From contig NZ_JAZDDH010000001.1 in the NCBI RefSeq assembly GCF_037081715.1, forward strand, positions 2,170,001-2,234,000: 64,000 nt of DNA, written 5' to 3'. Every line of letters starts with the position of its first letter. Position 1 is the stretch's first letter. Positions 33 through 50,733 of this stretch are shown here, piece by piece. The notes beneath the pieces are model-generated. The model did not search any database, was not told the origin of the DNA, and saw only the letters and a list, made by a program, of their open reading frames with translations. The position numbers and the translations under genes are program-made. This DNA is from Halalkalicoccus sp. CG83. GTDB lineage: Archaea; Halobacteriota; Halobacteria; Halobacteriales; Halalkalicoccaceae.

Positions 33-1007
33 ATGAACGTCCTCGTTACGGGCGGCTGTGGCTACGTCGGAAGCGCCCTCCTCCCACACCTGCAGGCGTC
101 CGAGGAGGTCGATCGGCTCATCGTCCTCGATGACCTCTCTACCGGCACTCCGCGAAACCTCTTCGGCCTCGACGTCGCCGACGGGTTCGCCTTCCGATCG
201 GGCGACGTCCGCAACTACGGCGACGTGGAGAACGCGGTCCGCGATGCGGACGCCGTGATCCACCTCGCGGCGATCACCGGCGCGGCGAGCACGCACGACC
301 GGCCCGAGGAGACCCGCGCGGTCAACTACGAGGGGACGAAGAACGTCCTCACGGCCGCCGAGAAGTTCGGCATCGGAAACGTCGTCTTCGCCTCCTCCTG
401 TAACAGCTACGGGCGCGCCGCGAGCGAGGACATCGACGAGAGCGTCGAGCCGGCGCCGATCAACCCCTACGCGGAGACGAAACACGACTCCGAGTCGCTG
501 CTGCGCGAGTTCGTCTCCTCGACCGGCGCCGACGCGACGGCGCTGCGGATGAGCACGAACTACGGGCTCGCTCCCGGGATCCGATTCAACCTCGTGGTCA
601 ACCACTTCGTCTTCCGTGCGCTGACGGGACGCCCGCTCACCGTCTACGGCGACGGCAGCAACTGGCGCCCGTTCATCCACGTCAGGGACGCCGCACGCGC
701 GTTCGCCCACGCCGCGCTCTCGCCGGAGCGGTGGTCACACCTCGTCTACAACGTCGGTTCGAACGACGAGAACTACCGCATCGCCGAGGTCGCACGCGTG
801 GTCCGCGACGAGATCGACGCCGACCTCGACGTCACCTACCTCCAGGACGAACACCCCGGTCCGTCGTACCACATCAACTTCGATCGGCTGGCCGAGACGG
901 GGTTCGAGACGCGATACACCCTCCCGAGGGGGGTTCGCGAACTGGCGGAGGCGTTCTCCGAGAGCCGGAAGGGAACGCTCGAGGGGAAGGGGATGATCGA
1001 GCCATGA
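33..1007 (+). CDS. NAD-dependent epimerase/dehydratase (extended SDR)
   Basis: 324-aa extended short-chain dehydrogenase acting on a nucleotide-activated sugar, probably in the cytoplasm. The Rossmann glycine motif TGGCGYVGS lies at residues 6-14 and the catalytic Tyr/Lys pair YAETK at 146-150. The length is typical of UDP-glucose 4-epimerase relatives. Its stop overlaps the ATG of the next epimerase by 4 nt, so the two are co-translated. With AglB and a glycosyltransferase nearby, a role in making sugar donors for N-glycosylation or surface polysaccharide is likely. The exact substrate cannot be read from the sequence. Confidence 0.9.
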   Translation: MNVLVTGGCGYVGSALLPHLQASEEVDRLIVLDDLSTGTPRNLFGLDVADGFAFRSGDVRNYGDVENAVRDADAVIHLAAITGAASTHDRPEETRAVNYEGTKNVLTAAEKFGIGNVVFASSCNSYGRAASEDIDESVEPAPINPYAETKHDSESLLREFVSSTGADATALRMSTNYGLAPGIRFNLVVNHFVFRALTGRPLTVYGDGSNWRPFIHVRDAARAFAHAALSPERWSHLVYNVGSNDENYRIAEVARVVRDEIDADLDVTYLQDEHPGPSYHINFDRLAETGFETRYTLPRGVRELAEAFSESRKGTLEGKGMIEP

Positions 1008-1996
1008 GCGAGGCCTCGACCGACGAGACGACGCGACCGACCGTCGCCGTCACGGGTGCGGCGGGCTACATCGGAAGCCGCGTCGTCACCCGCCTCCGAG
1101 AGGTCCACCCGGACTGGGAGGTCCGCACGTTCGACAACTTCTACAAGGACGGACTCCGCACGCTCGACGGCCAACCCGTGACGTATCTCGACGTCCGGGA
1201 CCGGTCGCAGTTGGAGGCCGCCCTCGAGGGGACCGACGTCGTCCTCCACCTGGCGGCGGTGAGCGGCGTGGACGACTGCGACGAGAACGCCGACCTGGCC
1301 TACGAGACGAACGTCGTCGGGACGAGCAACGTCGCGTGGTTCTGCCGCAAGAGCGGCGCGGGCCTCGTCTTCCCCTACAGCATGGCGGTCATCGGCACTC
1401 CCGAGTCGTTCCCGATCACGGTCGACGCCAAGCGCGAACCGCTCAACTGGTACGGACGGACGAAGCTCGCGAGCGAGCGCGACATCGAGACGTTCGCCGA
1501 CGGCGCCTTCCCCGCCCACCTCTACATGAAGTCGAACCTCTACGGCGAACACGTCACCGAGGGTCGGCACGTCTCGAAGGGGACGGTGATCAACTTCTTC
1601 GTCGAGCGGGCGCTCGCTGGCGAGCCCCTCACGGTGTACGAGCCCGGAACCCAGTCGCGGAACTACGTCCACGTCAAGGACATCGCGGAGGCGTACGTCC
1701 ATAGCGTCGAGCGGCTGCTCGAGCAGCGCGAGGCCGGCGAGACGGGGACCTGGAAGTACGAGCTCGCGAGCGATCAGGAGATGAGCGTCCGACGGGTGGC
1801 GGAGCTCGTCCGCGACGTCGCCACGGAGGAGCTGGGCGACGCGCCGGAGGTGACGCTGGTCGAGAACCCACGCAGCGACGAGACGCTCGTCGAGGAGTTC
1901 TCCGTCGACACCTCGAAGGCGCGCTCGGAGCTCGGATGGGAGCCGACCCACAGCGTCGAGTCGACCGTTCGGGACCTGCTCCGCGGCGAGGACTGA
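1004..1996 (+). CDS. NAD-dependent epimerase/dehydratase (extended SDR), second copy
   Basis: 330-aa extended SDR enzyme. TGAAGYIGS at residues 17-25 binds NAD(P) and Tyr150/Lys154 (YGRTK) is the catalytic pair. The chosen ATG sits in an ATGA overlap with the upstream epimerase stop. A longer open frame upstream overlaps that gene deeply and is not credible as coding. It differs enough from its neighbour to be a separate enzyme rather than a recent duplicate. It probably works on a sugar nucleotide in the same surface-glycan pathway. Confidence 0.9.
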   Translation: MSEASTDETTRPTVAVTGAAGYIGSRVVTRLREVHPDWEVRTFDNFYKDGLRTLDGQPVTYLDVRDRSQLEAALEGTDVVLHLAAVSGVDDCDENADLAYETNVVGTSNVAWFCRKSGAGLVFPYSMAVIGTPESFPITVDAKREPLNWYGRTKLASERDIETFADGAFPAHLYMKSNLYGEHVTEGRHVSKGTVINFFVERALAGEPLTVYEPGTQSRNYVHVKDIAEAYVHSVERLLEQREAGETGTWKYELASDQEMSVRRVAELVRDVATEELGDAPEVTLVENPRSDETLVEEFSVDTSKARSELGWEPTHSVESTVRDLLRGED

Positions 1997-2348: not shown

Positions 2349-4421
2349 TCACTCCCCGCGGACGGCACGCAGGATGGAACGGTATCGCTCCACCGCCGCG
2401 GCGTGGCTGTACTCGCGCTCGGCCAGCGCTCGCGCGTTCGCGCCGACGTCCGACAGGTCGTCCCTGGCGAGGATCGACTCCAGATCGCGGCGGATCGCCT
2501 CAGGATCCCTGCTCCGCATGAGAAAGCCGGTCTCGCCGTGTCGAACGACGTCCGGCACGCCCGAGACGGGCGTCGCGTACGCCGGCGTTCCGCAGGCGAG
2601 CGCCTCCAGAATCGTCGTCGGAAGTCCCTCGGTCGGCTGCGAGGGCATGACCAGCAAGCGGAGTCGGGCCAGCTCTGCGGGGACGTCCTCGTGGTCGATC
2701 CAGCCGGTGACCTCGACCGAGCCCCGTTCGATCTCGTCGGCGAGTTCCGATTCGAGCCACGGCCGTAGATCGCCGTCGCCGATGAACCGAAACGTGACTC
2801 CCTCCGGAAGCGACCGGGCGACCGCGGCGAGCTCGCGGATCCCCTTCTCCTCGTCGAGCCGGCCGAGGAAGCCGACGACACGCTCGCGTTCCTCGTACGG
2901 GACCGACGGCGAGAACCGATCGACGTCGACGTATCGCGCGCCCTCGGGGTGGACGGTCGGCGAGTCGGGGTCCAGTCCGAGCTGTCTGGCCATGTTCGGC
3001 GTGTAGGTGACGACGGCGTTCGCGCTCCGGAACCCGGCCCGCTCGAGCGCCCTCACGGCCCCGGCGAGCACTCTCGCCACCGGCGAGGGGAGACGCTGCT
3101 CCCAGTTGAGCCGGAGGGTGAGCGGGACGTCCCCCCGTGGCTCGATCAGGACCGTCTTGCCGTAGAGCCGTGCCGCGAGCACCGGGAGCAGATAGGAGGT
3201 CGCGCCGAAGAACAGCACGACGTCCTCGTCGCGACGGACGACGACGCGACACATCCGGAGCTGGTTGGCCAGAAACCGCGTGGCCGCCACCGGAACGCTG
3301 TCGCCGGCGCCCTTCGACGTGATCTCGACGAGTTCGTACTCCTCTCTGATGGTCGAGTTCGCCGGGAGGTCGGCGGTCACCAGACTGACCGGCGAGACGG
3401 CGGAGAGGACGTCGAGCAGCGTCCTCGTCGCGTTCTCGCCCGACGAGCTCAGCGGATGGGTGACGACGCAGACGCCCCGTTCGCCGACGTCGCCGTCCGA
3501 CGCTCGCCACTTCGTGAACCCGTACAGGTAGCCCGCGGCGACCGCGGCGGTGAAGACGTACAGTGCCACCAGCTGCAGCGCCTTCGCCACGGAGGGCGAG
3601 TCAACCAGCCCCCTGAGACGCCGCGGCGTCGCGCTCGTGAGGAGGTAGCCGAGGAAGTCGGCCTCCTCGCCGCCCTCGTCGTCGACGAGCACCTCCATCG
3701 CCCGCTTCGAGTACCCCTGCCAGAACGCCCGGTCGAGGAGCCAGTCGGGCACCGTGCGGTAGTCGTAGACCTTGTGTGCGACCGTCGCGCTCGGGACGTA
3801 CCAGACGCCCTCGCCGTAGCGCTCGCGCAATCGTGCACAGAGCTCGGTCTCCCCTCCCTGAAGGTTCTCGTCACCCTTTCGTCCCCCGATGCTCGCGTCG
3901 AACCCGCCGAGCTCCAGGAAGACCTCGCGGTCGAACGAGATGTTGGAACCGAACGTGTTCCGGACGTACCCCTCGCCGTCGGCGAAGCCGGCGTGCGTGA
4001 CGCCGACCAGCCAGTGGAACTCCTCCGGGAGGAAGGCCGGTCGTCCGGCGACCCACTCGGGAACCATCCGCCCGCCAACCGCGCGGACGTCACGCGTCTC
4101 GTAGCGCTCGACCAGCTCCTCGATCCAGCGTTCGTCCGCGACGGCGTCGTCGTCGATGAAGGCAACGACGTCACCGGAGGCCAGTTCGGCGCCCGTGTTT
4201 CGACTCTCGAGCAATCCGCGGTTCTCCGCGTTGCAGTGGACCACGACGTCCTCGCGATCGCCGTACTCCTCGCGAACGCGTTCGTAGACCGGTTCGGTTC
4301 CGTCGACGACCACGACGAGTTCGACGTCGTCGTGGCTCTGGGAGAGGACGCTCTCTACGGCCTCGTTGAACTCGTCGTACATGTCCATCGCATACGTACA
4401 GAGAACGACGGAGACTCTCAT
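2349..4421 (-). CDS. Bifunctional glycosyltransferase: GT2 domain fused to GT4 domain
   Basis: 690-aa protein with two transferase modules. Residues about 1-250 are a GT-A fold family 2 domain: VVLCTY near the N-terminus and the acidic FIDDDA near 88-93 for metal and nucleotide-sugar binding. A hydrophobic stretch near 280-305 may anchor or link the halves. Residues about 310-690 are a GT-B family 4 domain, with the donor-site pattern EGLPTTILEALACG near residue 610. ATG at 4421 is chosen; an in-frame GTG lies one codon upstream. Position beside aglB suggests two successive sugar additions to a lipid-linked glycan. Fusion of the two GT types in one chain is uncommon. Confidence 0.88.
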   Translation of the reverse strand: MRVSVVLCTYAMDMYDEFNEAVESVLSQSHDDVELVVVVDGTEPVYERVREEYGDREDVVVHCNAENRGLLESRNTGAELASGDVVAFIDDDAVADERWIEELVERYETRDVRAVGGRMVPEWVAGRPAFLPEEFHWLVGVTHAGFADGEGYVRNTFGSNISFDREVFLELGGFDASIGGRKGDENLQGGETELCARLRERYGEGVWYVPSATVAHKVYDYRTVPDWLLDRAFWQGYSKRAMEVLVDDEGGEEADFLGYLLTSATPRRLRGLVDSPSVAKALQLVALYVFTAAVAAGYLYGFTKWRASDGDVGERGVCVVTHPLSSSGENATRTLLDVLSAVSPVSLVTADLPANSTIREEYELVEITSKGAGDSVPVAATRFLANQLRMCRVVVRRDEDVVLFFGATSYLLPVLAARLYGKTVLIEPRGDVPLTLRLNWEQRLPSPVARVLAGAVRALERAGFRSANAVVTYTPNMARQLGLDPDSPTVHPEGARYVDVDRFSPSVPYEERERVVGFLGRLDEEKGIRELAAVARSLPEGVTFRFIGDGDLRPWLESELADEIERGSVEVTGWIDHEDVPAELARLRLLVMPSQPTEGLPTTILEALACGTPAYATPVSGVPDVVRHGETGFLMRSRDPEAIRRDLESILARDDLSDVGANARALAEREYSHAAAVERYRSILRAVRGE

Positions 4422-4525
4422 CACCGGGGCTCCGCCCGGTGGTGGGTTATTCCTTCCGTTACTTCCGTGGAGATCGAACGGGCGAGCGTACGGATCGCGC
4501 CCCTCCGTACGCCCCGATTACATAA

Positions 4526-4557: not shown

Positions 4558-7287
4558 ATGCGTGACGAGACCGCCCGGCAGCCCGGGTCGGAACGTCCCG
4601 CGACCGTCCCGACCGCGTTGGAGCGGTGGTACCACGTTCCGGTGCTCGCCGCGCTCCTGGCGTTCATGCTGTGGACGCGGACGCGAGCGTACGACCGGTT
4701 CGTCCGGGCGGACGGGACGATCGTTCTGGACGGCGTCGATCCCTGGTACCACTATCGGACGACCCTCTACACCGTCGTGAACTGGCCGTGGAGCATGCCC
4801 TACGAGGTCTGGTCGGGTCACCCGTTCGGGACCCACGTCGATCACTTCGGCACCCTCTTCGACCTGCTCATCGCCACCGCCGCCCTCGTCGTCGGCCTCG
4901 GCGATCCCTCCTTGGCGACGGTGAACGTCGTCTTCGTGCTCGCGCCCGCCGTCTTCGGGGCGCTCGTCGGCGTTCCGACCTACCTCCTCGGCGAGCGCCT
5001 CGGCGGGCGTCTCGGCGGCCTCTCGTCGGTCGCGCTCCTCGCGCTGTTTCCGGGGACGTTCCTCCGGCGGAGCCTCGTCGGGTTCACGGACCACCACGTC
5101 GCCGAGACGCTGTTCATGGCGATCGCCGTGCTCGCGTACGTGGTCGCGCTGCGCGCGGCCGAGGCCCACGAACCGAGCTACGAGCAGGTCGTGCGACGCG
5201 ACCTCGACGGCCTTCGGACGCCGCTGACCTGCTCGCTGCTCGCCGGCTTCGCCGTGGCGCTCTACGTCTGGACGTGGCCCTCGGCCGTCCTGTTGGTGGG
5301 CGTCCTCGGCCTCTTCTTCGCGGTGGCGCTGACCGCGAGCGTCCTCGTCGGCGACGATCCCGAGGGCGTCGCGTTGGTCGGGGTCGTCAGCCTCGGGTTC
5401 GCGGGACTGCTCGTCCTCCCGACGACGAGCGTCTGGGGCTTCGCCGGATCGACGACCCAGAGCCTCCTCCAGCCGACGCTCGCGTTCGCCGTCGCGCTCG
5501 GCTGTGCGTTCATGGCGTGGCTCGGGCGCCAGTGGGAGCGCCGCGGGATCGCGAAGGCGTTCTATCCGGTCGCGATCGTCGCCATCGGAGTCGTGGCGTT
5601 CGGCGTAACCGCGTCCGCGCTCCCGAACCTCGTCGATACGCTCACGACCAACCTCTCGCGCGTCGTCCCGATCGGCGCGACCGAGTCGACGCTCACCGTC
5701 AGCGAGGCACAGCCCCCGGACGACGCCGTCGACCGAATGGTCGACGAGTACGGTCTTGCGTTCTTCACCGCGGTGGCGGCGCTCGTCCTCATGATCGGGG
5801 AGTACGTCCTCGATCCACGGCGCCGGTCCGAGTACCTCCTCGTCGTGATCTGGGCGGCGTTCGTCACGAGCATGGCGCTCACGCAGATCCGGTTCAACTA
5901 CTACCTCGCCGTCGTCGTGGCCGTCTGCAACGCGCGGCTGATCGGTCTCGTCTTCCGGATCGACCGCTCGATTCTGCCGGACCCTCGGGCCCTCCGGGGG
6001 GCTCACCTGACGCTGCTCGTTGCACTCCTGTTCGTGTTCTTCGCCCCGCTGGTCCCGCTGATCGGCCCCGTACCGAGTACGACCGTCGTCGAGGCCGGCC
6101 AGGCGACGGGTCCGAACGACAATGCGATACGCTGGGAGGGGTCGAACGCGTGGCTCGAGATGAACAGCCCCGCGCCCGGCGCGTGGGGCGGCGCGGACAA
6201 CGAGGACGAACTGGCGTACTACGGCACCTACGACGTCCCCGAGGACCGCGACTTCGCGTATCCGGAGGGGAGCTACGGCGTGATGTCGTGGTGGGACTAC
6301 GGCCACCTGATCACCGTCCAGGCCGAACGCATCCCCCACTCCAATCCGTTCCAGCAGAACGCCAGCTCCGCCGCCGCCTTTCTCACTGCCGACTCCGAGC
6401 AGCGGGCCGAACTCGTTCTCGAAGCGCTGCCCGTTGCCCGGGGTGGGGACCCCCTCTACACCCGCAGCGACGAGGAACTCGCGGCGCTCGCCGACGAGCG
6501 GACCGCCCAACAGGAGAACGAGGAGGTTCGCTACGTCATGATCGACGACGAGATGGCCGGCTTCAAGTTCGGCGCCATCACGACCTACGCCGGCGGCGGG
6601 AACGGCCCGTACGCCAGCTACCGGGAGGTCGAGACGCGCGAGGGCGAGATCATCAGGGCTCCGGCACGCAACCAGGCCTACGCCGACACCACCCTCTCGC
6701 GGCTCTACTACGACGACGCGGACGGAATGGAACGCTACCGTCTCGTCCACGAGAGCGACGGGACGACCCGGTTCGCCAGCGTCGCCGTCTCGCGTAACGA
6801 CGGCGAGAGCTGGCAGTCCAGACGGATCAATCGGGAACTGACGCCGAGCGTCGAACGCTCGATCTCCCGGCTCCGGGAGGATCCGAACGTCGACGTCGCC
6901 GTCTACGACGAGCGCGAGACCTCGAGCGTGAAGACCTACGAGCGCGTCGAGGGCGCCCGGCTGACCGGCAGCGTCGACGCCCCCGAGGGGTCGATCGTCA
7001 CCGCCGAGGTCGAGCTTACCGCCGAGGGGACGGGCCGGACGTTCACGTACACGCAGACGGCGCGCGTGGACGAGGACGGGGAGTTCGCGATGCGGGTGCC
7101 GTACGCAACCGAGGAGGACCGCAGCGTCGAGGAGGGCTACACCGACAGCGACGTTGCCGCAGACGGCCCCTACGAGATCCGGGTCGACGCCACGGACACG
7201 TCGGAGGCCGGGAGCGAGGACGAGTCCGTCGGGACGGCCGAGGTGCCCGAGAGCGCGATCTACGACGGCGAGACCGTCGGGATCTAG
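4558..7287 (+). CDS. aglB: Oligosaccharyltransferase AglB (STT3 family)
   Basis: 909-aa membrane enzyme that moves the assembled glycan from dolichyl (pyro)phosphate to Asn in Asn-X-Ser/Thr on the outer face of the membrane. About a dozen hydrophobic segments fill residues 28-520, followed by a large soluble domain. The first extracytoplasmic loop holds the acidic motif DGVDPWYHYR (58-67). The signature WWDYG is at 578-582, and the haloarchaeal DDEMAGFKF segment follows near residue 665. The end of the protein is a beta-rich domain of surface-layer type. Strong identification. The start is set by the box A at 4526-4534. Regulation may involve the adjacent ribbon-helix-helix gene, which is inference. 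Confidence 0.97.
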   Translation: MRDETARQPGSERPATVPTALERWYHVPVLAALLAFMLWTRTRAYDRFVRADGTIVLDGVDPWYHYRTTLYTVVNWPWSMPYEVWSGHPFGTHVDHFGTLFDLLIATAALVVGLGDPSLATVNVVFVLAPAVFGALVGVPTYLLGERLGGRLGGLSSVALLALFPGTFLRRSLVGFTDHHVAETLFMAIAVLAYVVALRAAEAHEPSYEQVVRRDLDGLRTPLTCSLLAGFAVALYVWTWPSAVLLVGVLGLFFAVALTASVLVGDDPEGVALVGVVSLGFAGLLVLPTTSVWGFAGSTTQSLLQPTLAFAVALGCAFMAWLGRQWERRGIAKAFYPVAIVAIGVVAFGVTASALPNLVDTLTTNLSRVVPIGATESTLTVSEAQPPDDAVDRMVDEYGLAFFTAVAALVLMIGEYVLDPRRRSEYLLVVIWAAFVTSMALTQIRFNYYLAVVVAVCNARLIGLVFRIDRSILPDPRALRGAHLTLLVALLFVFFAPLVPLIGPVPSTTVVEAGQATGPNDNAIRWEGSNAWLEMNSPAPGAWGGADNEDELAYYGTYDVPEDRDFAYPEGSYGVMSWWDYGHLITVQAERIPHSNPFQQNASSAAAFLTADSEQRAELVLEALPVARGGDPLYTRSDEELAALADERTAQQENEEVRYVMIDDEMAGFKFGAITTYAGGGNGPYASYREVETREGEIIRAPARNQAYADTTLSRLYYDDADGMERYRLVHESDGTTRFASVAVSRNDGESWQSRRINRELTPSVERSISRLREDPNVDVAVYDERETSSVKTYERVEGARLTGSVDAPEGSIVTAEVELTAEGTGRTFTYTQTARVDEDGEFAMRVPYATEEDRSVEEGYTDSDVAADGPYEIRVDATDTSEAGSEDESVGTAEVPESAIYDGETVGI

Positions 7288-7404
7288 CTCGGCCGGCGCG
7301 GACGGAGCCGACGGCGACGGGACGAAAACGCCACCGGCGTGGCGTTCGATCGGCCAGTCTACACGACCTACCGAAGCGACGTCGCGTGGCCCCGCCGATC
7401 CCGC

Positions 7405-7614
7405 TCAGCGGAGATAACCCAGGTCCCTGAGCTGGTCTGCGATCTCCTCGAACTCCGCCTCGGTGAGTTCGCCCCGTTTCTGGTGCTGGATCACGATGCT
7501 GCGGAGCAGGAACCGCACGAGGTCGCTCGTGCTCTGGAAGCTCGTCCCCTCGATGGTCTCCTCGACGCGCTCGGCGAGGTCCTTCGGGATCGAAACGGTG
7601 GTGTACTCGGTCAC
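7405..7614 (-). CDS. Ribbon-helix-helix (CopG/Arc-type) DNA-binding protein
   Basis: 69 aa from a GTG start; an upstream in-frame start would give 78 aa. The beginning TEYTTVSIPKDLAERVEE is the classic RHH pattern: a short strand that inserts in the DNA major groove, then two helices (DLVRFLLRSIVIQ is helix 2). The C-terminal third is acidic and helical. Such proteins act as dimeric repressors. It is convergent with aglB and divergent from the DUF368 gene, so it may regulate the latter or itself. The target is not visible. Confidence 0.8.
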   Translation of the reverse strand: MTEYTTVSIPKDLAERVEETIEGTSFQSTSDLVRFLLRSIVIQHQKRGELTEAEFEEIADQLRDLGYLR

Positions 7615-7772
7615 GTGCGGGCGTGAGCACTGCGGACCCAAAGCGGTTGTGCCCCGCGGGACGGCGTCGACGTCGGTCGCGTCGCTCGTGGGGAAGACAC
7701 TCCGTCACGAACTGCGGCGCGGGTCGTCGTCAGAGAGAACGGTTTTCCCCCTCCGTCCGAAACGGCGAGTCG

Positions 7773-8717
7773 ATGAGAGAGTGGGTCGTGATCTATCTGA
7801 AGGGAGTCTGTATGGGCGCCGCCGACATCGTCCCCGGCGTCTCGGGAGGGACGATCGCGCTGATCACCGGCATCTACGACCGGCTGATCGCCGCCATCGC
7901 CGCGATCGACCCGCGCGTGCTCGCCGGGCTGCCGGAGGTGGGAAGCGTGGACGGACGGGCCCGACTCCGCGAGGACCTGCTGGCGATGGACGTGCCCTTT
8001 CTCCTCGCGCTGGGTGCCGGTATCGGTACCGCCTTCGTGCTGATGTCGCGAGTCATCCACGCCGCGTTCGAGGCCTATCCCGCCGTGCTGAACGGCTTCT
8101 TCTTCGGCCTGATCGCCGCGAGCGCCGTGGTGATCTACCGGGCGATCAGGGTCGACACGCCCGGGCGGATCGCCGCCCTGCTCGGCGGTGGCGTCCTCGC
8201 GTTTCTCGTCAGCGGCGCGGCCGAGTCCGGCGGAAGTGCGAGCCTCGCGCTCGTCTTCCTCGCGGGTGCGATCGCCATCTCCGCCATGGTACTGCCGGGG
8301 ATCTCCGGCGCCGCCTTCCTCTACATCCTCGGGCAGTACCAGTACATGCTCGGGGCGCTCACCGAGTTCACCGACGCGCTCGTCGCGATCCCGAGCGGCG
8401 GAAGCGTCGACGCCGCCGTCACCCCGGGAATCCCCGTCGTCGTCTTCCTCGCGGGCGCGTCCGTCGGCCTGCTGACGATGGCTCGGGTGGTGAAGCGCGC
8501 GCTCGAGCGAAACCGGATGGCGACGCTCGGCTTCCTCGTCGGGCTGATGGTCGGAGCGCTTCGCCTCCCCGTCGAGGAGGCCGCCGCCGCCACCGGGACG
8601 CTGACGACGGGCCTGCTCGTCGCGATCGTCCTCGCCGCGGTCGTCGGGGTCGGCGTCATCCTCGCCTTCGACCGGTTCGGCGGGTCGCTCGACTACACCG
8701 AGGACACCGCCGTCTGA
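7773..8717 (+). CDS. DUF368 membrane protein (PopT-type polyprenyl-phosphate transporter candidate)
   Basis: 314-aa polytopic protein with 8-9 predicted membrane segments. The N-terminal signature KGVCMGAADIVPGVSGGTIA, and its repeat-like counterpart AMVLPGISGAAFLYILGQY near residue 170, mark DUF368. In bacteria this family (PopT) has been implicated in returning undecaprenyl phosphate across the membrane. Here it lies 0.5 kb after aglB, so recycling of dolichyl phosphate after N-glycosylation is a reasonable inference. ATG at 7773 is chosen because upstream in-frame codons lack hydrophobic or family-like sequence. Confidence 0.9.
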   Translation: MREWVVIYLKGVCMGAADIVPGVSGGTIALITGIYDRLIAAIAAIDPRVLAGLPEVGSVDGRARLREDLLAMDVPFLLALGAGIGTAFVLMSRVIHAAFEAYPAVLNGFFFGLIAASAVVIYRAIRVDTPGRIAALLGGGVLAFLVSGAAESGGSASLALVFLAGAIAISAMVLPGISGAAFLYILGQYQYMLGALTEFTDALVAIPSGGSVDAAVTPGIPVVVFLAGASVGLLTMARVVKRALERNRMATLGFLVGLMVGALRLPVEEAAAATGTLTTGLLVAIVLAAVVGVGVILAFDRFGGSLDYTEDTAV

Positions 8718-50470: not shown

Positions 50471-50627
50471 GATTGAGGATAGGAACCGCACGAACCGCAG
50501 ACAGCACTTCCGATGCACTACCGCAATCCCAAGTCCGCAGATCGGACGAGTCGGATTTACGGCCGTGCCGTTCCCACTCGCCGTAACCCGCGCGTCGGAC
50601 TAAAGGGTTGCTACTCGGGTTCGAAGC

Positions 50628-50661: not shown

Positions 50662-50733
50662 GGGCTCGTAGATCAGTGGTAGATCACTCCCTTGGCATGG
50701 GAGAGGCCCCGGGTTCAAATCCCGGCGAGTCCA
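50662..50733 (+). tRNA. tRNA-Ala (anticodon GGC)
   Basis: 72-nt cloverleaf. Acceptor GGGCTCG pairs with CGAGTCC, including the G3:U70 pair that marks alanine tRNAs. The anticodon stem CTCCC/GGGAG encloses loop TTGGCAT with anticodon GGC. The T arm is CCGGG-TTCAAAT-CCCGG, and the discriminator base is A. CCA is not encoded. The 3' end borders a stretch of mobile-element-like DNA, and tRNA genes are common integration sites. Confidence 0.97.

Follow-up and report, generated by a model that had tools for sequence, protein, structure and literature searches.

A conserved aglB-DUF368 gene pair in Halobacteria, with a second occurrence in Thermoplasmata, suggests a candidate gene for dolichyl phosphate return

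In a 64,000-nucleotide stretch of the genome of Halalkalicoccus sp. CG83 (contig NZ_JAZDDH010000001.1, positions 2,170,001 to 2,234,000; here called the window), the gene for the archaeal oligosaccharyltransferase AglB is followed by a gene encoding a membrane protein of the DUF368 family (PF04018). This arrangement proved to be common: DUF368 lies less than 3 kb from aglB in 55 of the 78 sampled haloarchaeal genomes that hold both genes, and the two genes are also linked in a separate lineage of Thermoplasmata. Together, these two observations make a functional tie to AglB likely, while the 23 unlinked haloarchaeal genomes and 18 of 18 methanogen-side loci without aglB nearby imply that the tie is not obligatory. 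DUF368 probably acts in the step after AglB, returning the dolichyl phosphate that AglB releases; its substrate, its direction and its cotranscription with aglB are what we infer. A first-pass annotation of the window had put forward such recycling from this single locus. The conserved pair makes the underlying link to AglB likely, and the recycling itself retains the standing of a proposal.

The gene pair in the window

aglB (positions 4558 to 7287, plus strand) encodes a 909-amino-acid protein of the STT3 family that matches TIGR04154 with 802.5 bits (cutoff, 450) and PF02516 with 83.2 bits (cutoff, 24.5) and that also scores above the cutoffs of the AglB_core-like and AglB_L1 families (PF22627 and PF18079). 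Its translation contains the sequence SWWDYGH (SWW at residue 577), including a WWDYG stretch that we take to be the AglB/STT3 motif. The DUF368 gene (positions 7773 to 8717, plus strand), with a likely ATG start at 7773 and a stop at 8717, encodes a polytopic membrane protein of 314 amino acids (PF04018, 214 bits; cutoff, 26). It is located downstream of aglB on the same strand at a distance of 485 bp (7288 to 7772), so that the adjacency originally noted, at about 0.5 kb, was borne out. Two PG[VI]SG motifs are found in the DUF368 protein, at residues 21 and 175, and 23 residues, including P21, G22, S24, G25, P175, G176, S178, and G179, are invariant in 43 archaeal and bacterial DUF368 sequences. 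The AlphaFold2 model contains 14 helices (mean predicted local distance difference test score, 91.6).

The stretch between the two genes contains a small antisense gene, unmentioned in the first-pass annotation, that encodes a ribbon-helix-helix (RHH) protein (approximately 7405 to 7614, minus strand; PF01402 RHH_1, 22.7 bits; cutoff, 20.5), for which tblastn gave a match from 7614 to 7408 and the list of open reading frames (ORFs) gives an outer limit of 7641, by way of an earlier TTG start. This gene also adjoins DUF368 in one genus-mate (G001, locus L021; tblastn). It had no tblastn match in the corresponding loci of two others (L022 of G003 and L024 of G004), in both of which the gap between aglB and DUF368 is 39 bp; the gap in the window is unusual. 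The RHH gene itself is strongly conserved, with copies of 88 to 96% identity in L021, L060, L079, and L084; unlike those in the window and in G001, the copies in the last three loci are situated elsewhere in the fetched stretch. A tRNA-Glu gene predicted by ARAGORN antisense within aglB (6711 to 6786, minus strand) was absent from the Rfam matches above the gathering score and was taken as false. Additionally, the same genome encodes a second AglB on another contig (G000:C2:515936-518584, locus L119; 807.9 bits to TIGR04154), with no DUF368 in the stretch fetched around it.

The pair is widespread among Halobacteria

The pair was surveyed in 80 Halobacteria genomes from 76 genera, taken from a set of 96 by omitting 15 fragmented assemblies and 1 spare of a genus already present. 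For distances between aglB and DUF368, only TIGR04154 matches above the cutoff, among the matches listed, were used, leaving out weaker STT3 relatives, and in five genomes (G019, G058, G067, G190, and G334), two rows belonging to one reading frame were joined by hand. PF04018 is near universal in the class (386 of 391 genomes); within the sample, PF04018 and TIGR04154 were each found in 79 of 80 genomes and co-occurred in 78. All 55 linked genomes, representing 9 of the 11 sampled families, have DUF368 downstream of aglB on the same strand. Broken down by family code, with denominators that add up to all 80 genomes and thus include the two not holding both genes, linkage was seen in 4/5 genomes of f1, 9/14 of f4, 20/21 of f5, 2/2 of f6, 3/3 of f7, 9/24 of f8, 0/1 of f10, 1/2 of f11, 0/1 of f12, 5/5 of f13, and 2/2 of f14. 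The idea that the neighborhood might be found only in the window species is therefore disproved.

The spacing is mostly tight. From the aglB stop codon to the start of the DUF368 match, the distance is at most 60 bp in 30 of the 55 linked loci and at most 100 bp in 38, while five loci have a gap of 1.6 to 2.5 kb with intervening genes; in three f5 genomes (L038, L075, and L085), a gene read as encoding an AglM-like UDP-glucose dehydrogenase (UGD) is located between the two. By simple arithmetic, random placement in a genome of 3 to 4 Mb would be expected to yield a same-strand, downstream neighbor within 3 kb in about 0.05% of cases. Chance neighborhood was ruled out by the frequency of linkage, together with the comparison of both sides of DUF368 and the Thermoplasmata loci described below.

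In a survey of named loci, again among the matches listed, tblastn found aglB in 12 of 80 loci, including a Thermoplasmata locus (L157) and a short fragment (L155). Haladaptatus salinisoli, Halorhabdus amylolytica, Halostagnicola, Halorubrum, Haloglomus, and Halolamina have aglB beside DUF368 in this survey, and no aglB was found by tblastn, among these matches, in the DUF368 loci of Natronorubrum, Natrarchaeobius, and Halobellus. Finally, four of the five Halobacteria genomes without DUF368 (of 391) also had no STT3 match (G198, G215, G312, and G387), all of them being fragmented assemblies of 90 to 180 contigs. At the corresponding flanks, the contig ends in G312, whereas in G198 and G215, it continues without the pair; this flank is also rearranged in G216, of that genus.

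Most unlinked haloarchaeal copies form one clade

The unlinked copies were placed in a tree built from 98 DUF368 proteins, of which 80 are haloarchaeal. The linked loci L028 and L094 had been lost in ORF selection, L119 contributes no DUF368, and L117 and L118, situated on a very long branch, were left out of a second tree (see below); both trees were quick, with support given by the Shimodaira-Hasegawa-like approximate likelihood ratio test (SH-aLRT) only. Twenty-two unlinked haloarchaeal copies group together in a single clade (SH-aLRT, 99), whose neighbors in the tree are the linked copies from f5. Members of this clade are the sole kind of DUF368 in 20 genomes from 20 genera, amounting to 20 of the 23 unlinked genomes; in the remaining three (G019, G045, and G068), the unlinked copy belongs to the other kind. 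Both kinds coexist in two genomes, one of which is the window genus-mate G003 and the other G023.

Examination of AglB loci covered 20 of the 23 unlinked genomes (G045, G068, and G162 were left out) and revealed no DUF368 within the fetched 20 kb at any locus. In 6 of the 20 (L122, L123, L124, L134, L139, and L140), DUF368 is gone, and the genes behind aglB belong to families found behind the pair in linked relatives. We infer displacement, including its direction: genomes that had access to a transferred, unlinked copy lost the linked one. Such displacement suggests that both kinds of DUF368 do the same job and that this job is rarely given up. Unlinked copies may have spread by way of plasmids: Haladaptatus pallidirubidus carries a DUF368 relative (L196, NZ_CP085307.1) on a large plasmid.

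A second linkage in Thermoplasmata

Outside Halobacteria, PF04018 was found in 34 of 203 genomes of the phylum searched, as counted from match rows. When AglB was sought in 57 methanogen-side or unlinked loci, by tblastn with five AglB queries and by a scan for WWDYG-type motifs, both run with no positive control for methanogen AglB, only three weak matches were obtained (E, 0.002 to 0.007), all of them in L063. Of the 18 methanogen-side loci (L101 to L118), 12 contain a GalE-like epimerase family, and 13 contain a family that, from its sequence, we read as phosphoglycerate mutase-like.

The situation is different in Thermoplasmata. L157, a locus from a metagenome-assembled genome (MAG), contains, closely packed on one strand, aglB, AMMECR1, an amidohydrolase gene, DUF368, an inositol-phosphatase-like gene, and the enolase gene. 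In the order to which this MAG belongs, DUF368 is present in 12 of 52 genomes. From these 12 genomes, 13 loci were examined, leaving out the second piece of a split gene in G630 and a weak match in G618 (20.4 bits, below the cutoff); aglB was located upstream on the same strand in nine, and in the other four, the contig ends before that point. The gene order differs from that in haloarchaea. In the second tree, which contained 31 hand-picked haloarchaeal sequences and did not include the partial DUF368 of L251, 11 of 12 Thermoplasmata proteins form a clade (support, 98) far from the haloarchaeal clade (support, 100), with L243 falling outside and with methanogen and bacterial DUF368 proteins on the Thermoplasmata side. 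The simplest account of these observations is a second, separate linkage of aglB and DUF368; the alternative is a very old linkage that was lost in methanogens.

Inherited gene order or functional tie?

Shared descent is the real null hypothesis for this pair, and it was addressed by the second lineage and by a control in which the same anchor, DUF368, was kept and its two sides were compared at 60 loci outside the unlinked clade. Neighbor families in this control come from our own clustering, and the names glp, Orc, UGD, and RfbX are readings unless a Pfam match is cited. It is conceivable that the pair is merely part of an ancestral neighborhood of aglB, DUF368, an Orc/Cdc6-like AAA gene, and glp-like genes that is slowly decaying, without any function being attached to it. 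Some old synteny does survive: the commonest downstream family, glp-like, is found within two genes of DUF368 in 15 of the 60 loci, the next, Orc-like, in 13, and an AglG-like glycosyltransferase gene, on the far side of aglB, in 24. Moreover, six changes are enough to account for adjacency among the haloarchaeal sequences in the DUF368 tree. However, aglB is located within two genes upstream in 53 of the same 60 loci, a frequency some 3.5 to 4 times that of the downstream families and roughly double that of the AglG-like gene, and is thus retained far better than the other neighbors. The pair persists, in several families, amid flanks that differ on both sides, and it occurs separately in Thermoplasmata. 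Inherited order without function is thereby weakened, to the point where we consider it improbable, the control being a comparison among the neighbors of one anchor.

Proposed role of DUF368 and competing explanations

Bacterial DUF368 proteins have been reported to return bare undecaprenyl phosphate to the inner leaflet (PMC12826051), and in Haloferax, dolichol phosphate is described as the carrier on which the glycan is assembled before it is flipped and then transferred by AglB, with AglR and Agl15 having been proposed as outward flippases; in Halobacterium salinarum, one glycan uses a pyrophosphate carrier (PMC3871713). On a dolichol phosphate carrier such as that of Haloferax, the by-product of AglB should be dolichyl monophosphate, with no diphosphate to be removed first. 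We propose that AglB, acting on the outer face of the membrane, would leave dolichyl phosphate on the outer leaflet upon glycan transfer and that the polytopic DUF368 protein, in which the PG[VI]SG element is repeated, would return it to the inner leaflet, where glycosyltransferases could load it again. With the DUF368 gene kept immediately after aglB, mostly at operon-like spacing, the capacity for recycling would be matched to its use. Whether the fuller scenario holds, in which DUF368 would be a dedicated dolichyl phosphate return step built into the aglB gene string in two lineages (Halobacteria and an order of Thermoplasmata) and displaced by a transferred, unlinked DUF368 in 20 of 76 haloarchaeal genera, is in our judgment about evenly balanced.

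Several observations weigh against the proposed role and against a strict partnership with AglB. The lack of linkage in 23 of the 78 genomes with both genes has been mentioned, and aglB was near DUF368 in none of the 18 methanogen-side loci, each of which comes from a different genome among the 34 with DUF368 outside Halobacteria. Either gene can occur alone: G001, of the window genus, keeps DUF368 without any TIGR04154 or PF02516 match genome-wide (with an estimated completeness of 97%, AglB may have been lost or may fall in an assembly gap), and G020 has AglB without DUF368. In the window itself, the spacing is not operon-like, and with an antisense RHH gene within the 485 bp between them, aglB and DUF368 do not form a simple operon in this species. 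At the protein level, the window DUF368 scores 182.7 bits to NF052564 (VCA0040 type) and 77.4 bits to NF052563 (PopT), both below the cutoff of 400, and is therefore filed only as a member of the PF04018 superfamily. Its model found no confident fold match: the best Foldseek hit had an E value of 0.069, and BacA/UppP (5oon) had an E value of 0.43. The best VIA-align row, a ZIP transporter (Z, 9.2; root mean square deviation, 4.4 over 174 residues), is unconvincing for a helical protein, and no solved relative was found by sequence at E values up to 1. Finally, DedA-type proteins (PF09335) are encoded in 79 of the 80 haloarchaeal genomes, so that DUF368 need not be the only route and DedA could share the work.

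A number of these points would fit a general carrier-lipid translocase, serving N-glycans, mannosyl transfer, and exopolysaccharide alike, which would be located next to aglB only because AglB is its largest user or because the site is convenient. DUF368 is indeed kept without aglB (G001) or far from it (23 of 78 genomes), and it occurs on the methanogen side with no aglB nearby, often in the company of the GalE-like epimerase family, and in a Methanobrevibacter MAG (genome of L158) that has no STT3 match. The 55 linked genomes, with their strict orientation and tight spacing, and the recurrence of the linkage in Thermoplasmata point to AglB in particular, and we consider a general translocase possible yet unlikely. 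DUF368 might also move something else altogether, for instance by flipping the glycan-charged carrier outward, or might mainly serve sodium or pH tolerance. Gene neighborhood alone tells neither direction nor substrate, and the family has been tied to alkaline and salt fitness (PMC9876793), which would fit these alternatives. However, outward flipping already has its proposed proteins in AglR and Agl15, several of the aglB-DUF368 loci contain genes that we read as RfbX-like flippases, and the bacterial homologues act on the bare carrier, all of which makes these alternatives very improbable. We therefore retain the return of dolichyl phosphate after AglB as the probable role of DUF368.

Wider neighborhood of the pair

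The genes around aglB in the window form an agl-like neighborhood that includes a sugar-nucleotide part. Two genes (33 to 1007 and 1004 to 1996, plus strand) encode proteins resembling nucleoside diphosphate (NDP)-sugar epimerases/dehydratases (PF01370, 165 and 136.5 bits). They are followed, on the minus strand, by a gene (2349 to 4424) for a 691-amino-acid protein in which an AglG-like family 2 glycosyltransferase (GT2) is fused to a family 4 glycosyltransferase (GT4) (NF041394 AglG, 510 bits; cutoff, 440; Glycos_transf_2 and Glycos_transf_1). This fusion suggests that both enzymes act together. The two halves are separate matches in nine other fetched loci, side by side in seven of them, and one locus (L137, G077) has a match spanning both. 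Downstream of DUF368 are a small ORF and genes that, from their domains, we read as encoding glycerol-3-phosphate dehydrogenase subunits and glycerol kinase; an AAA gene downstream of DUF368 was read as Orc/Cdc6-like. Elsewhere in the window, an S15-Halobacteria ribosomal protein leader RNA (50515 to 50577, minus strand; 70.2 bits) is located near a tRNA-Ala gene at 50662.

Relation to earlier work and to known systems

Both the protein family and what it does in bacteria are already known, and its role in archaea has received some attention. In one study, the growth defect of a Vibrio cholerae vca0040 mutant under alkaline conditions was complemented, at least in part, by the Haloferax volcanii DUF368 protein (HVO_RS12060); the authors also note an apparent enrichment of DUF368 in Halobacteria and bring up dolichol phosphate when discussing their results (PMC9876793). 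The suggestion of the first-pass annotation that the pairing hints at a function for archaeal DUF368 proteins is thus strengthened by the conserved pair, and the idea is in part already in print. The available text of another study (PMC10127716) mentions DUF368 once, without AglB. In literature on DUF368, AglB, and archaeal N-glycosylation, which was covered in part and without the companion PopT paper (10.1038/s41586-022-05587-z), no link between aglB and DUF368 was found. Within the reach of this search, three findings appear to be new: the conserved link to AglB, its recurrence in Thermoplasmata, and the pattern of displacement.

In the sources consulted, the archaeal N-glycosylation cycle is described up to AglB, and no gene assigned to the return of the spent carrier was found in the portions available. 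The conserved pair names a candidate gene for this return step in genetically tractable organisms and points to a way in which archaea may recharge their glycosylation machinery. The occurrence of DUF368 in both linked and displaced copies offers a natural swap experiment. If the proposal is true, one protein family for carrier recycling would tie bacterial cell wall synthesis to archaeal protein glycosylation.

Three known systems invite comparison. DedA/UptA proteins (PF09335) are carrier-lipid flippases with the same proposed job in bacteria but belong to a family different from DUF368; a DedA match was noticed a few kilobases downstream of aglB in G222, a single case outside any systematic test. 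The Haloferax volcanii agl cluster (aglJ to aglM) shares AglB, an AglG-like glycosyltransferase, and sugar-nucleotide genes with the window. It has been published as ending at aglM, with no carrier-recycling gene named in the available text (PMC3871713 and PMC5867893), and the published Halobacterium cluster similarly ends at VNG1068G, aglB. Judging from L038, L075, and L085, and not from the H. volcanii genome, a Haloferax-like order would continue with DUF368. Finally, the bacterial undecaprenyl phosphate translocases VCA0040 and PopT resemble the window DUF368 in Pfam family, in both PG[VI]SG motifs, and in the invariant residues; they differ in that the window protein scores below the NCBIfam equivalog cutoffs, in that the archaeal carrier is dolichyl phosphate rather than undecaprenyl phosphate, and in that the archaeal gene is located behind aglB.

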